A stretch of 40,372 bases of DNA from an uncultured Paraglaciecola sp. Its GTDB lineage: Bacteria > Pseudomonadota > Gammaproteobacteria > Enterobacterales > Alteromonadaceae. The stretch spans positions 1-40,372 of the forward strand of contig NZ_CAJXPA010000018.1 of NCBI RefSeq assembly GCF_913058035.1, read 5' to 3'. Below the pieces are notes generated by a model, which saw only the letters and a program-made list of their open reading frames with translations, did no database searches and was not told where the DNA came from. A program made the translations under genes and the position numbers. Positions 5 to 28,988 of this stretch are shown here, in pieces; positions within the stretch are counted from its first letter, which is position 1, and every line of letters starts with the position of its first letter.

Positions 5-991
5 ATGTACTCTCTTAATGTATCGTCTGAGTCTATTGAACTTGATTTTGATAGATTTGATGTTATTTATAAGAGACAACTTGGGACTACTCGTGGCTGT
101 CAAACACCTGAAAGAAACGTCTTCAGGGTCTGTTCTACACGCTTAAAAAATGATGGTAATGCGCCTTATATTTTGCATCATGATAAGGTCACTAAAAAAG
201 TAGTGGTGCTGTTCCATGGACTCAGTGATTCGCCCTTTTTTCTTCGTTCTATTGCGCAATCCATATACCAGCAAGGTAATAATGTGATTGTTGCACTCAT
301 GCCTGGTCATGGTAAAAAACAAGCTGATAAAGATATGCAAGACACAGAACTGGCGGATCGCTGGCGAGCGCATGTATCAGAAGTCATTGAGTATTCATCT
401 AGTTTAGGTGCTCAGCGTTATGTAGGAGGTTTTTCAACAGGTGGCGTACTAGCTACCGAGTATATTCTACAAAACCCAAAAACGGTTAGCGGGTTGATGT
501 TATTTTCTGGGGCGCTGGCGTTAGACTCAAATGTAGAGGCTATGGCTAATATTTGGGGGATCCAGTGGTTAGCTAAAATGTTAGATGGTGAATATGAAAC
601 GCAAGGACGTAATCCTTACAAATATCCACGTGTTGCGCGTTTTTCAGCATTTGAATTAACCGAAGTTATCTTTTCAGTTCGATATTTAATTCAACAGGGC
701 GCACTACTTAATCTACCCATTTTTGTGGCTCACTCATTGGCCGATACAACAATACCTGTAATAGGGGTTAAAAATTTAATGGCGGCGAATAGAGGACCAA
801 ATACTTTTTTTGAAATGTCCTTAGATGCTGACGTCTGTCATGCTGATGTAGTAATAAACGAAAAGCAATTATCTGATATGCATTATGATGTTTCAATGTT
901 GGATGAAATAATGCCTTGTGATGTGCCCAAAGCCAATCCTAAACATGCAGAAATGATAGATTCTTTGAGCCAGTTTTTGGTGGCTTATTAG
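5..991 (+). CDS. Alpha/beta hydrolase (serine esterase/lipase-like)
   Basis: A 328-residue cytoplasmic-looking protein with no signal peptide. It has the alpha/beta-hydrolase pattern: HG at residues 71-72 (oxyanion region), PGHG at 100-103, and the nucleophile elbow GFSTG at 142-146 with Ser144 as nucleophile. Asp247 (in HSLADTTIP) is the likely acid and His279 (in DVCHAD) the likely base, both inferred from order and spacing. The layout resembles monoacylglycerol-lipase or carboxylesterase-type hydrolases, but the substrate cannot be read from the sequence. The ATG lies four bases from the window edge, so the true start could be further upstream. The length is normal for a complete member. 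The next gene on the strand begins 337 bases later, so it is probably the last gene of its transcript. Confidence 0.85.
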   Translation: MYSLNVSSESIELDFDRFDVIYKRQLGTTRGCQTPERNVFRVCSTRLKNDGNAPYILHHDKVTKKVVVLFHGLSDSPFFLRSIAQSIYQQGNNVIVALMPGHGKKQADKDMQDTELADRWRAHVSEVIEYSSSLGAQRYVGGFSTGGVLATEYILQNPKTVSGLMLFSGALALDSNVEAMANIWGIQWLAKMLDGEYETQGRNPYKYPRVARFSAFELTEVIFSVRYLIQQGALLNLPIFVAHSLADTTIPVIGVKNLMAANRGPNTFFEMSLDADVCHADVVINEKQLSDMHYDVSMLDEIMPCDVPKANPKHAEMIDSLSQFLVAY

Positions 992-1328
992 GGCTAGCTA
1001 TCATGAATATTCTGATGGTTTTACTCAGCAGCATCGATGCCGGACCACGAAAGCATTGCACCTACAAAAACGAGAATATATAAAGGTAGGGTGAGATTGC
1101 TAGGTTGTTCAAACCATATCAATTTGGAAGTACTCACATATTGAATTTAAGGCAAGCCTTAAAAAATAGTGCATCTTTTTACTAATTGACAAGGTGTTTT
1201 ATTTTATTGCCACTGATGGCATTGGTTTTTTAAATTAGCTCATTAAGTCGAAAAATATCTGAGCATGGTAATCACTGTCAGAAACTGTAACACTGTCAAT
1301 AAACTACTCAAGCTAAGGCGACTAAATT
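992..1328. other. Intergenic region with an 18-bp palindrome and CTGT repeats
   Basis: No convincing ORF is seen. It contains a palindrome at 1146-1163 (arms TTTAAGGC / GCCTTAAA around AA) and three CTGT-beginning motifs at 1275, 1285 and 1293 (CTGTCA, CTGTAA, CTGTCA), 35-55 bases before the GST-like gene. The loop is too short and the T-tract absent for a normal terminator, so the palindrome looks more like a protein-binding site. Its role is unknown. Confidence 0.4.
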
Positions 1329-2429
1329 ATGCCAAATGAATATACGCTCTATGGTGCTCCTATGTCGTTGTATACAGGTAAGGCTAGAGCCTATTTAATA
1401 TTTAAAAAATTGCCGTATAACGAGGTGTTTTCTTCGCTTAAGGTTTACAAAAGTATTATTGTACCTAACACAGGCGTCCGTTTTGTGCCTGTGCTTAAAA
1501 CACCTAAAGATGAGTATTTGCAAGACACTGCAATGATTATTGATACGCTTGAGCAACGCCATCCAGAACGTTCGATCACGCCTGAATCTGCTAAGCAGAA
1601 GCTAGTTTCTTACTTATTTGAAACATGGGCAGATGAGTGGCTGGTTATACCGGCTATGCATTACCGTTGGAATAAAGCCAATTTCCCTTTCATTTATGAA
1701 GAGTTTGGAAAAGTTATTGTGCCGAATATGCCAAGGTTTATCCGTGCCTTTCTCGGTAAGAAAATTGGCGCTAAATTTAAGGGTTTTGTGCCCCTGTTAG
1801 GTATTACCGACAAGAGTATCCCTGCAATAGAAAGTTGGTACGAAAATCATGTGTTGCCATTATTAGATAAACATTTCTCTAAAAATGATTATCTACTAGG
1901 TAGCAAACCATGTTTAGGCGATTTTGGTTTGATGGGGCCTTTGTATGCTCATCTATACCGTGATCCTGCACCAGGTGCATTGATGAAAGAAGTTGCGCCT
2001 AATGTGGCTAGATGGGTCGAAAGAATGAATCAGCCTCAAGATGCTGAGGGCATGTTCTTGGCTGATGATGTTATACCAGATACGTTGCTAATTTTGCTGA
2101 CACGTATATTTAAAGAACAATGGCCAGTGTTGATCAACACGGTGGAAAGTATAGATACGTGGATTGTTCAAAATCCACAAGTCAAAGCAGTTCCCAGAAC
2201 CATAGGTGAACACACGTTTACTATTGGTGATATAACTGAGAAACGTGCCATTGGCACTTTTCATCAGTGGAAAGTACAGCGAATAGTAGATTGCTACCAC
2301 CAATTCGACAGTAAAGAAAAGTTATCAGTGGATGCCTTTCTACAGTCGGTTGGTGGACTACATTGCATGCAGTTAGATATTAAAAAGAGATTAAGTAGAA
2401 TTAAGAATAAATTGGTATTGAGTGATTGA
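1329..2429 (+). CDS. Glutathione S-transferase family protein with extended C-terminus
   Basis: A 366-residue protein. Residues 1-85 look like a GST N-terminal thioredoxin fold: it begins YTLYGAPMSLYTGKAR, and the VRFVPVLKTP segment carries the expected cis-proline region followed by DTAMIIDTLEQRHPE. Residues from about 95 to 235 are helical with KNDYLLGSKPCLGDFGLMGP, typical of the GST C-terminal domain. The last 120 or so residues are an extension beyond the usual 200-230 residue GST length and match no domain I recognise. The likely activity is glutathione-dependent conjugation or reduction, with the substrate unknown. The start is ATG 1329, preceded by an AAGGCG ribosome site. It is followed 46 bases later by trxC, so a thiol-redox transcript is possible. 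Confidence 0.75.
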   Translation: MPNEYTLYGAPMSLYTGKARAYLIFKKLPYNEVFSSLKVYKSIIVPNTGVRFVPVLKTPKDEYLQDTAMIIDTLEQRHPERSITPESAKQKLVSYLFETWADEWLVIPAMHYRWNKANFPFIYEEFGKVIVPNMPRFIRAFLGKKIGAKFKGFVPLLGITDKSIPAIESWYENHVLPLLDKHFSKNDYLLGSKPCLGDFGLMGPLYAHLYRDPAPGALMKEVAPNVARWVERMNQPQDAEGMFLADDVIPDTLLILLTRIFKEQWPVLINTVESIDTWIVQNPQVKAVPRTIGEHTFTIGDITEKRAIGTFHQWKVQRIVDCYHQFDSKEKLSVDAFLQSVGGLHCMQLDIKKRLSRIKNKLVLSD

Positions 2430-20429: not shown

Positions 20430-21326
20430 GTGGAATATCAGAATAATTTAAATGCATTACAAATAGATAAAAAATTAGCAGAATTAACTCATGCTCAAAA
20501 AGATCGTTTAGCATTCATTGATTTTAGTTTACAGTTTTTTGGGCATGTTGCTCGTAACGATCTTATCAAGCGTTTTAAAACGGGGCTAGCTGCAAGTACA
20601 CGTGACTTTAGTACTTATAAGGAGCTTGTCCCATCCAATCTCATTCTGCGACATCAAACAAAAAATTACTACCGCACAGACAACTTTCAGCCAATATTTA
20701 CACACGATCCTGAGGTTATTTTGACTTCCTTGAGTCGTGGATTTGGTAACGGTATATCCACTGGTGTACAACCTTCTGAGCAATGTTTCGATGCGGTCAG
20801 GCTGATACATCCTAATGTCGCTATCATTGCCAGTATTATGCGGGCAATTCACAATAAACAAGCAGTCAGGTGTGGTTATGTATCAGTATCATCAGGTGAA
20901 ACAAAACGCGCCTTAGTACCACATTCAATTGTCAACAATGGTCATCGTTGGCACGTGCGTGCTTATGATCGCAAAGGCAATCGTTTTCGTGATTTTGTAT
21001 TTACTCGTTTTACCTTTATTGATTTATTGCAAGGGCCTGTGCATGTGCACGAAGCCAGCCCATATGATCAGCAATGGCAACAAATTGTGAATATTATACT
21101 TATTCCTCATCCCAACATTAAGCAGTCAAAGGCGATTGAGATGGATTACAATATGTCGGATGGGATGCTTTCAATACAACTTAGAGCTGCCGTTGCGGCT
21201 TATGTGTTGAGGCAATGGCAAGTGGATTGTTCAACTAACCATATTAAAAACGACCAAGGGTTCCAGTTAGCACTTGCTAACCCCGAGGTATTAAATTTGA
21301 TTGACAATTTTTTATTAGTTTCCTAA
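20430..21326 (+). CDS. BrxR/CapW-type WYL-domain transcriptional regulator (orphan)
   Basis: A 298-residue protein. Residues 25-90 form the N-terminal winged helix of the BrxR/CapW family (DRLAFIDFSLQFFGHVARND, then LIKRFKTGLAASTRDFSTYK), residues about 130-205 the WYL domain (GHRWHVRAYDRKGNRFRDFV at 171-190), and 215-298 the WCX dimerisation domain. Known relatives repress BREX and CBASS defence operons and may respond to a nucleic-acid-type ligand. No defence gene lies beside it: serA and an HDAC-like gene are the nearest, each across about 0.8 kb of non-coding DNA. The start is GTG 20430, since no ATG precedes the conserved region; the ribosome site is weak. Family assignment is firm; the target is unknown. 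Confidence 0.85.
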   Translation: MEYQNNLNALQIDKKLAELTHAQKDRLAFIDFSLQFFGHVARNDLIKRFKTGLAASTRDFSTYKELVPSNLILRHQTKNYYRTDNFQPIFTHDPEVILTSLSRGFGNGISTGVQPSEQCFDAVRLIHPNVAIIASIMRAIHNKQAVRCGYVSVSSGETKRALVPHSIVNNGHRWHVRAYDRKGNRFRDFVFTRFTFIDLLQGPVHVHEASPYDQQWQQIVNIILIPHPNIKQSKAIEMDYNMSDGMLSIQLRAAVAAYVLRQWQVDCSTNHIKNDQGFQLALANPEVLNLIDNFLLVS

Positions 21327-21382
21327 TCTAATCTGAATTATTCAATGGCATTCGGCATCTGCAAATTGTGATGACGTTATCT

Positions 21383-21410
21383 AAGACACATTTGATAAGA
21401 CACATTTGAT
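21383..21410. repeat. 14-bp perfect tandem duplication
   Basis: AAGACACATTTGAT occurs twice back to back (21383-21396 and 21397-21410), in non-coding sequence 57 bases after the WYL regulator stop. Confidence 0.9.
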
Positions 21411-21653
21411 GATTTATGGGTCGGATTTTTATATCAGTGGGAATATCACAAGGCCATTGTGTTGAGATGAACGTTTGAACATAAAATAATATTCTAGATA
21501 AATAGATAAGCATGTATGCCAGATTTAATTTTTACTTGATCGCGATTTGTGACTAATACATCCGTATCGTAAAAAATAATATCAAGTTTTGATTCAGTCT
21601 AAAGTATTCATCTTGACAAGTATTTTTCGGTTTCTTGAATATACTAAATAACC

Positions 21654-21674
21654 AATTATTGACAATCAATAATT
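21654..21674. promoter_or_regulatory. Perfect 9-bp inverted repeat with 3-base centre
   Basis: Arms AATTATTGA (21654-21662) and TCAATAATT (21666-21674) flank CAA. There is no T-tract, so it is unlikely to be a terminator. It has the size of a dimer binding site. Position between the WYL regulator and serA suggests an operator, but no target promoter is evident. Confidence 0.4.
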
Positions 21675-22120
21675 AAGCTGTCGGTTTAGTAAAACAAGAA
21701 AGGTAATTGAATTGATTGACATTTTGACTGTTGTAAAAAAAACAGCTTAGTGCTGATACATAACTATCATCTTGACGGATTGCTGCATCGCGTTTAGCTG
21801 CAAGTGACTAGGATGATATGTGGATAAATGACGCAGAAGTAATGTGATATTGATTAAATAGACTTCTGTGGTCTGTCATTGGTAAAATCATTGTTCTGAG
21901 TGAATGGTTTTATAAAACGATTTACAATTAATGCTTTTATCATAATAGAATCCATTGTTTGGCAACGCTTGCTAACTTTTCAAGCCCATATGGCTGGTAG
22001 TGAAATAAATGATTAAACATTTTGTATATAAACAATAACTATAAATCCACTTTTTTAATATGGCTTAAGTCACAATTGGCTTTATATGTAAGTCGATTTC
22101 TGCTATTTTCTCCATCAAAT

Positions 22121-22136
22121 AGACGTCCAGATGTCT
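22121..22136 (+). promoter_or_regulatory. Tandem MetJ boxes upstream of serA
   Basis: AGACGTCC (22121-22128) followed directly by AGATGTCT (22129-22136); each matches the MetJ consensus AGACGTCT at 7 of 8 positions in the required tandem 8-bp phasing. It lies 27 bases before the serA ATG. MetJ, with S-adenosylmethionine as corepressor, binds two or more such boxes. Confidence 0.7.
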
Positions 22137-22163
22137 TAAATTAAACTGCCACGTGGGAATATA

Positions 22164-23393
22164 ATGAGCAAAGTATCGTTGCCGAAAGAAAAAATCAAAA
22201 TATTACTACTTGAAGGTCTTCATCAAAGTACCTTGGATACACTTCATGCCAGTGGTTATGAAAATATTGAGTACCTGAAAACATCATTACCAGAAGATGA
22301 ACTGATTGCCAAGATTAAAGACGTGCATTTTGTTGGTATCCGTTCCAGAACACAGCTGAATGAGAACGTAATTGCCGCTGCTAGTAAATTAGTGGCGGTA
22401 GGTTGTTTTTGTATTGGTACTAACCAGGTTGACTTGGTCGCTACACAAATACGTGGCATACCTGTTTTTAATGCGCCTTTTTCAAATACACGTTCAGTGG
22501 CAGAGTTAGCGCTTGCTCAAATTATTTTGCTTTTGCGTGGCGTGCCAGCCAGAAATGCCAAGGCACATAAGGGCATCTGGGATAAAAGTGCAGTGGGCTC
22601 TTTTGAAGCGCGTGGCAAAACCTTGGGTATTATTGGTTATGGACACATTGGTACCCAATTAAGTATTTTGGCTGAGCATCTTGGAATGCGAGTGCAGTTT
22701 TTTGATGTTGAAAATAAATTAGTCTTAGGTAATTCAACACAAACTAAAACCTTAAAACAATTGTTAAATACTTCAGATGTAGTCACTCTTCACGTGCCTG
22801 AGACAGTACAAACACAAAATATGATCAGTGCCAAAGAGTTAAGTATGATGAAAGATGGTGCAATCTTAATAAATGCTGCCAGAGGCACTATCATTGACAT
22901 TGATGCTTTGGTTGATGCATTAAAAAGTGGAAAGTTAGCTGGTGCAGCGATTGATGTATTCCCAGTGGAACCGAAGTCTAATGACGAACCATTTGAATCA
23001 CCATTGACTCAGTTTGATAATGTTATTCTGACTCCTCACGTAGGAGGCAGTACTCAAGAAGCCCAGCAAAATATTGGTATCGAAGTTGCCGGTAAGCTTG
23101 CCAAGTACAGTGATAACGGTTCGACGTTGTCAGCAGTTAATTTTCCAGAAGTATCTTTGCCTGAACAAACTGAGCGCTCACGTTTATTGCATATTCATAA
23201 AAATGCACCGGGTGTACTAACACAAATAAACCAAGCATTTGCTCAAAAAGGGTTAAATATTGCTGCTCAATACCTACAAACTAATGCAAATATTGGTTAT
23301 GTGGTGATTGATGTTGAAACTGATGATGCAGAAGAAGCATTCGAGCAACTTCAAAAAATTGACGGCACAATCAAAACAAGGATATTGCATTAG
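22164..23393 (+). CDS. serA: D-3-phosphoglycerate dehydrogenase (SerA)
   Basis: A 409-residue enzyme oxidising 3-phosphoglycerate with NAD+, the first step of serine synthesis, of the short E. coli type. GIIGYGHIGTQ at about 155-165 is the NAD-binding motif. The catalytic triad is Arg240 (NAARGTII), Glu269 (VEPKSND) and His292 (TPHVGGSTQEA). The C-terminal ACT domain (337-409, NAPGVLTQINQAF) binds serine for feedback inhibition. The ATG at 22164 has a GTGGGA-type site. It is a single gene closed by a terminator, with two MetJ-like boxes in its leader. It draws 3-phosphoglycerate produced by the pgk pathway encoded 10 kb downstream. Confidence 0.95.
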   Translation: MSKVSLPKEKIKILLLEGLHQSTLDTLHASGYENIEYLKTSLPEDELIAKIKDVHFVGIRSRTQLNENVIAAASKLVAVGCFCIGTNQVDLVATQIRGIPVFNAPFSNTRSVAELALAQIILLLRGVPARNAKAHKGIWDKSAVGSFEARGKTLGIIGYGHIGTQLSILAEHLGMRVQFFDVENKLVLGNSTQTKTLKQLLNTSDVVTLHVPETVQTQNMISAKELSMMKDGAILINAARGTIIDIDALVDALKSGKLAGAAIDVFPVEPKSNDEPFESPLTQFDNVILTPHVGGSTQEAQQNIGIEVAGKLAKYSDNGSTLSAVNFPEVSLPEQTERSRLLHIHKNAPGVLTQINQAFAQKGLNIAAQYLQTNANIGYVVIDVETDDAEEAFEQLQKIDGTIKTRILH

Positions 23394-23887
23394 TTTATTT
23401 ACTATTTCCAACACCAAATTATGAAAATGCCTGCCAATTTAGGTGGCATTTTTATTGACGAGTGATGAAATATTAAGCACATAAATAGACGAGTAACAAA
23501 CAGAATTGGAAACACTGTCTCTGTGATACCCATTTTATCTAACTATACCTAATTGAGATCCAATTTAGACCAACTATTTATAGTTCCTAGAAGTTGCTTC
23601 ATTATGTTGTTGATACAGATATGCATGCAAAGCAAATAGCTTTTAGTGTTTTTGGCAAGGGGCAAAGATGGTTTATTCACATGCAAAATCATTTTGTATC
23701 AATAATGACAATACCAATATTGTCCTTTCAATATGCTGGGGTAGGTTATTGTTTTTTTAATGATGCCTACTCAATATTGGTCATCACATTCATTCAGCAC
23801 ATAAAAGCTGATACGAAAATAAATATTAGCTATGCAGATTAATACTTAAATCAAAATATTTTTATTAATAACAATATACTCAGATGT
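23394..23887. other. Intergenic region between serA and rsmE
   Basis: Contains the serA terminator. An 82-codon TTG-start frame (23594-23842) is present but has no ribosome site or recognisable protein character. Nothing else was seen. Confidence 0.5.
23424..23454 (+). terminator. Rho-independent terminator of serA
   Basis: Stem AAAATGCC (23424-23431) / GGCATTTT (23445-23452) with extra CC / GG pairing inside, followed by a T-rich stretch. It starts about 30 bases after the serA stop. Confidence 0.85.
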
Positions 23888-27575: not shown

Positions 27576-28721
27576 TTAAATACTTGCTTTGAGCTGTTCA
27601 GCAATATCTGTTCTTTCCCAAGGAAAATCTTCTCTGCCGAAGTGCCCGTAAGCAGCTGTTGCTTGATAAATAGGTCGCTCAAGGTCAAGCATTTTGATCA
27701 GTCCGTATGGTCTTAGTTCGAAGTTGTCACGCACCAATTTAACTAATAATGCATCTGAAACCTTACCCGTACCAAAAGTATCAATGTTGATGGATGTCGG
27801 TTCTGCAACGCCAATGGCATATGACAATTGAATTTCACATTTATCTGCAAGTCCTGCGGCTACAATATTTTTTGCTACGTAACGTCCAGCATAAGCGGCT
27901 GATCTATCAACTTTTGATGGATCTTTTCCAGAAAATGCACCACCACCATGTCTTGCCATACCCCCGTATGTGTCGACAATAATTTTACGTCCTGTCAGAC
28001 CACAGTCACCCATCGGTCCACCAATGACAAACCGACCTGTTGGGTTAATAAAATATTTAGTTTTTTTACTCAAAAATTTTTCAGGCAATACAGGTTTGAT
28101 TATTTCTTCCATAACCGCTTCGCGAAGATCAGCTGTGCTGATGCTCTCATCATGTTGCGTTGATAACACTACTGCATCGATCGCTACGGGTTGATTGTTT
28201 TCATAAATAAAAGTGACTTGGCTTTTTGCATCTGGTCGTAACCATTTCAAAGTGCCATTTTTACGTACTTCAGACTGGCGTTTAACTAAGCGATGAGAAT
28301 AAGTAATAGGCGCAGGCATTAATACATCTGTCTCATTACTAGCATAACCAAACATTAGACCCTGATCGCCTGCTCCTTGTTCTTCTGGAGAAGAACGGTC
28401 AACGCCTTGGTTGATATCAGGAGATTGTTTGCCTATAGCATTTAATATGGCACATGAGTCTGCATCAAACCCCATATCCGAATGTACATAACCTATTTCT
28501 CTGACTGTTTTACGGGTAATCTCTTCAATGTCTACCCAAGCTGATGTTGTGACTTCGCCACCGACTAACACCATACCTGTTTTGACAAAGGTTTCGCAGG
28601 CCACTCTAGCTTTTGGATCTTGGGTCAAAATGGCGTCTAAAACGGCATCAGAAATTTGATCTGCGATTTTATCAGGGTGTCCTTCAGAGACAGATTCAGA
28701 AGTAAAGAGATGTGAGGTCAT
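27576..28721 (-). CDS. metK: Methionine adenosyltransferase (MetK)
   Basis: A 381-residue cytosolic enzyme making S-adenosylmethionine from methionine and ATP. Diagnostic motifs are [20 protein letters not shown] at about 11-30, [16 protein letters not shown] (about 116-131) and the phosphate-binding loop [19 protein letters not shown] (about 256-274). Length is that of E. coli MetK (384). The start is ATG 28721. A MetJ-type operator sits in its leader about 85 bases upstream, as expected for the methionine regulon. It is divergent from tkt. Confidence 0.96.
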
Positions 28722-28803
28722 AAAAGGGCCTTGATTTAAAAAGTCATTATAAAAATTTAGTGTATTTTAACTATTCAAATATAAAATACCAGTATTTACT
28801 TCT

Positions 28804-28819
28804 AGACGTCCAAACGTCT
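28804..28819 (-). promoter_or_regulatory. Tandem MetJ boxes upstream of metK
   Basis: On plus, AGACGTCC (28804-28811) and AAACGTCT (28812-28819); on minus these read AGACGTTT and GGACGTCT. Each differs from AGACGTCT by one or two bases in correct 8-bp phase. Repression of metK by MetJ-SAM is established in enteric bacteria. The site lies in the metK-tkt divergent region. Confidence 0.75.
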
Positions 28820-28988
28820 GTTATTGTTATTCTACTAAGCTGTAAAAAAAAGTCATATACAAATGACTATTCATAATGGATTTAGCATTGCAGTTAGATG
28901 CTAGCTAATACAAAATACACAGCTATCTTAGGTAACTGTAATTTCGAGTTACGGAAAGCCATAATTATTGGATCAGTCAGGAGAACAC

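Follow-up and report, generated by a model that had tools for sequence, protein, structure and literature searches.

A pair of adjacent 8-bp met boxes directly upstream of serA, the first gene of serine biosynthesis, is very likely an operator for the methionine repressor MetJ and, judging from sequence comparison, would put serA of an uncultured Paraglaciecola sp. under the control of S-adenosylmethionine (SAM). The window, i.e., the whole stretch of 40,372 nucleotides that was analysed (contig NZ_CAJXPA010000018.1), contains this site and a second MetJ-type operator next to metK (Table 1). The reading of the serA leader as a MetJ operator is supported by the presence of metJ in the genome and by the conservation of the boxes among relatives.

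Table 1 Features of the window that relate to the predicted MetJ control of serA
Feature	Position	Strand	Description
Probable extended -10 element	22101-22109	+	TGCTATTTT; TG at 22101-22102, hexamer TATTTT at 22104-22109
MetJ-type operator of serA	22121-22136	+	Adjacent met boxes AGACGTCC and AGATGTCT
serA	22164-23393	+	Phosphoglycerate dehydrogenase, 409 aa; NCBIfam NF008759, 682.8 bits (cut-off 404)
metK	27576-28721	-	Methionine adenosyltransferase; NCBIfam TIGR01034, 655.6 bits (cut-off 309.4)
Possible third, weaker met box	28796-28803	+	TTACTTCT; adjoins the metK operator, pair 28796-28811 scores 12.0
MetJ-type operator, metK-tkt intergenic region	28804-28819	+	AGACGTCC and AAACGTCT; 6,683 bp from the serA site

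The predicted operator and the serA leader

Each of the two serA boxes differs from AGACGTCT by one mismatch, and 27 bases (22137-22163) separate the pair from the ATG of serA. Two hallmarks of MetJ operators are found at this site, namely at least two adjacent 8-bp boxes resembling AGACGTCT and a position at the promoter, the operator starting 43 bases before the ATG within a putative promoter region. We count against the site that it has two boxes only and that both are mismatched. No RNA family of Rfam was matched in the window, and thus no riboswitch was recognised in the serA leader. The leader is part of an 837-base gap (21327-22163) without a long open reading frame or Rfam match, which lies between a WYL-domain gene (20430-21326) and serA. 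Unlike in the window, rpiA is located upstream of serA in many relatives.

metJ and other MetJ-type sites of the genome

The genome encodes a single copy of metJ (PF01340, E 1.8e-58, 196.6 bits, cut-off 25). Its product aligns over residues 6-102 (97 residues) closely to the Met repressor structure of E. coli (E 8.9e-49), and the solved relatives found for this MetJ were Met repressors only. The initial annotation had described paired boxes 27 bases before serA and a like pair 6.7 kb away at metK, and had concluded that a MetJ-like repressor is probably present in the organism; both pairs are where it placed them, and the repressor gene has now been found. Four sites with two or fewer mismatches occur in the genome, namely those upstream of serA and metA and those in the metF-metJ and metK-tkt intervals. 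Two overlapping sites with three mismatches precede a thrA-type gene, which matches ThrA over the 437 residues covered. The remaining four three-mismatch sites (L006, L009, L010, L011) look like chance matches, because no adjoining methionine gene was recognised by the starts of the neighbouring open reading frames, part of which were also covered by a family scan.

The transketolase gene tkt (plus strand, start at 28968 or 28983) is divergent from metK and the operator between them is common to both, so MetJ might also act on tkt. In genome G009, a Na+/H+ antiporter family protein (PF03553; locus L132, positions 131-1489, minus strand) is encoded beside a met box pair with two mismatches; it could be the methionine transporter MetT, a name used by Leyn et al. 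(PMC4239095).

A pattern search with up to three mismatches returned two sites in the window (22121 and 28804) against 0.02 expected, and none of 100 shuffled windows reached two. Across the whole genome (4.9 Mb), the same search gave 10 sites as compared to 14 for the reversed control, i.e., the loose pattern is not enriched, and it was therefore rejected as stand-alone evidence. With up to two mismatches, four sites in this genome compare with two for the reversed control, and 86 sites with 19 when the 22 genomes of the genus are summed. The case for the putative serA operator is thus one of position and conservation, not of pattern alone. Scored with a matrix of 22 sites beside metJ, metK, metA, and thrA-type genes, none of them at serA, the serA site reaches 20.3, with best scores of 8.3-15.9 in 20 shuffled windows. 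The score of the pair that includes the possible third metK box falls within this range, as does that of a candidate at position 23882 at the 3' end of rsmE (score 14.2), which was set aside.

Conservation and distribution of the serA site

The third hallmark, conservation at orthologous promoters, is also found. A complete serA is present in all but one of the genus's 22 genomes (G012 was excluded for a partial serA that has no leader), and 20 of these 21 leaders have AGACGTCCAGATGTCT unchanged, located 43 to 72 bases upstream of the gene start; the odd one, from G018, carries one further change. The boxes that the initial annotation had suggested seeking in the leaders of relatives are hence conserved. 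Of 26 further related leaders, 22 carry the exact 16-mer. Over these 26 leaders it has 0.15 mismatches on average, while the median leader 16-mer has 5.73, and the operator is the best-conserved 16-mer. At conserved residues, the third codon positions of the same serA genes agree in 40-72% (i.e., 28-60% differ), with the value for L100 being distorted by a one-codon insertion. This set omits L012, a duplicate of L096, as well as L014 and L016 with displaced sites and a changed second box, and L117 (minus-strand match, first codon not ATG) entered no site count. In the two Alteromonas loci L014 and L016, the operators are located 201 and 291 bases upstream of serA, respectively, their second box is changed to AGATGGCC, and a G+C-rich palindromic stretch (about 2800-3000 in L014, about 2710-3000 in L016) separates operator and gene; an insertion in these leaders is likely.

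Within 450 bases of serA, 23 of 80 named loci have a site scoring at least 10, a cut-off that was chosen after the scores had been seen. These are all eight loci of Paraglaciecola, Glaciecola, Alteromonas, Neptunicella, and Aestuariibacter, all ten of Colwellia, Thalassotalea, Thalassomonas, and Litorilituus, and five of seven of Shewanella, whereby two AGCC-type training sites (Psychromonas metJ and Thalassomonas metJ) raise the Colwellia and Shewanella scores. Shewanella benthica has a further variant of the Shewanella serA site (score 8.6). In S. corallii, the aligned leader stretch is no longer box-like and the site seems to have been lost. By the same cut-off and distance, no serA site was found in Pseudoalteromonas (0/5), Photobacterium (0/3), Aeromonas (0/3), Psychromonas (0/3), Vibrio (0/13, one of which is a Vibrionaceae assembly), enterobacteria (0/17), and ten other groups represented by one locus each (0/10). 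For lineages that lack the serA site, a scan of 1,450 nt for MetJ sites ahead of rpiA gave best scores of 0.8-4.6 in Pseudoalteromonas. A weak common match (score 9.4) was seen in Alkalimonas, Rheinheimera, and Arsukibacterium loci about 740-785 nt upstream of serA (L024, -742; L025, -773; L031, -784), roughly at the expected beginning of rpiA.

metJ is present in 36 of 40 relatives and in 19 of the 20 genomes behind named loci; the exception is Marinobacter, which also lacks a site upstream of serA. Among the genomes tested, serA sites occur only where metJ is known, i.e., in all 11 site-bearing genomes of these 20 and in G000-G011, G013-G023, and G028. By the matrix, eight of the 19 metJ-bearing genomes have no serA site, and thus having metJ does not entail a site at serA and the link is lineage-specific.

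The boxes themselves vary between lineages. Colwellia-group serA boxes are AGATATCTAGCCATCT or close to it, whereas those of Shewanella are AGCCATCTAGCCCTCC. Searching eight genomes with the Shewanella pattern gave no match for the reversed control. Apart from serA, S. olleyana has matches in the metB-metJ interval and upstream of msrA, and S. fidelis has one next to a gene that resembles msrA, judging solely from the start of its sequence; no methionine gene was linked to the other matches (G041, G046, G047, G040). The matches at metB-metJ and msrA, together with the empty reversed control, support the Colwellia and Shewanella variants as met boxes.

These variants also bear on the alternative that some other regulator, or a leader element, accounts for the 16 conserved bases, which would then resemble a met box pair only by their wording. 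We regard this as improbable. That MetJ binding is predicted only and that the loose pattern shows no enrichment across the genome would fit such an element, but the matrix that recognises the serA site was built solely from sites beside metJ, metK, metA, and thrA-type genes, the Shewanella half AGCCATCTAG recurs beside metB-metJ and msrA, both of them MetJ targets that are known or have been predicted (PMC4239095), and AGCCATCT, one of the Colwellia-group serA boxes, is also found before Thalassomonas metJ. A functionless chance match or the plain shared ancestry of a young leader is less credible still: while 21 of the leaders come from a single genus and the reversed control yields its 19 two-mismatch matches in 22 genomes, the 16-mer is fixed in a leader that otherwise diverges and before genes that differ at many third codon positions, and it is also retained in Alteromonas, Glaciecola, Neptunicella, and Aestuariibacter.

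Promoter geometry

The probable extended -10 element starts 20 bases upstream of the serA operator. A consensus promoter scan at serA gave three matches against 2.6 expected; it did not list TGCTATTTT and revealed no clear -35 element. Among the 40 site-bearing loci that are not from Shewanella, 39 have the motif TGnTAnnT no more than 40 nt before the operator. Counted over all site-bearing loci at a matrix cut-off of 8.5, likewise set after inspection of the scores, and with L096 omitted, this amounts to 39 of 48 loci, as compared to a mean of 4.3 and a maximum of 9 in shuffles. In Shewanella and Shewanella-like loci, the motif is instead located 17-18 bases downstream of the operator (7/8), and the eighth locus, from S. 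corallii, has a spurious far match only. The downstream motif occurs in seven of seven AGCC-type loci versus a shuffle mean of 0.3 and a maximum of 3. The seven serA genes concerned have 73-80% of their bases in common, so this layout is more than recent copying. Operator and -10 motif are found together 413, 206, and 227 bases before serA in the Shewanella-type loci L056, L044, and L121, respectively, and other Shewanella-type leaders measure about 103-116 bases, i.e., leader length varies greatly.

Given the putative promoters and start points, MetJ would occupy the region just past the transcription start in Alteromonadaceae and the Colwellia group, as opposed to the -35 region in Shewanella. 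The location of the operator on the opposite side of the extended -10 element in Shewanella is a hint of separate origin. It is quite possible, if not quite probable, that serA came under MetJ control on at least two occasions in the order, with opposite promoter geometry and differently worded boxes. As an alternative to two gains, a single ancestral site could have been relocated by operator turnover.

Proposed regulation of serA

One-carbon units come mainly from serine, which also provides the carbon for cysteine. We infer MetJ binding, repression, transcription start, and physiology at serA from the sequence. When SAM is abundant, MetJ-SAM dimers would bind to both boxes just downstream of the conserved extended -10 element, with the operator at about +4 to +20 of the transcript. 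Because this element is located about 20 bases upstream of the operator, MetJ, if bound as predicted, probably blocks transcription initiation. At low SAM, repression would be lifted and serine would be made for methionine synthesis. The conserved predicted MetJ site before serA thus suggests that serine synthesis is probably lowered when methionine is plentiful.

Relation to published MetJ regulons

Leyn et al. 2014 (PMC4239095) name btuFCD, thrABC, and serA among the new predicted MetJ targets in Alteromonadales, and they list msrA as a MetJ target in Shewanella. Our analysis agrees with this prediction in regulator, target gene, and order, and both thrABC-type and Shewanella msrA sites were seen again here. 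The initial annotation had put forward serA as an unusual MetJ target; its reading of the site holds, but the surprise is smaller than it implied, as serA is already listed in that paper. The present result is thus an independent confirmation of the published prediction in a further genus. Supplementary tables aside, the main text of PMC4239095 contains neither sequences of serA sites nor a list of the species or promoter positions for serA, and what is added here to that text are leader alignments, the distribution across families, and the location of the operator with respect to the -10 element. serA was hence already known as a predicted MetJ target, whereas the difference in operator geometry is possibly new.

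Like the classical MetJ operators of E. coli, which are arrays of AGACGTCT (cf. PMC3228920), the sites described here consist of adjacent 8-bp boxes and go along with an orthologous repressor; the core targets metF, metK, and metA are also common to both systems. A difference is that 17 of 17 enterobacterial serA leaders examined are without such a site. By term search, serA is absent from the main text of PMC3228920, an earlier MetJ survey, and likewise from PMC5343134, and among the titles and abstracts listed by literature searches no experimental test of MetJ on serA was recognised.

The conserved serA sites provide genus-wide support for the published prediction, and thus for a coupling of serine synthesis to methionine and SAM demand in Alteromonadales, which contrasts with the enterobacterial, Vibrio, and Aeromonas leaders examined. 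If the proposal of two gains is true, the pairing of serine supply with SAM demand would have been selected repeatedly. A target gene whose operator is located on one or the other side of the promoter, depending on the lineage, would be well suited for studying how a regulon gains a member.
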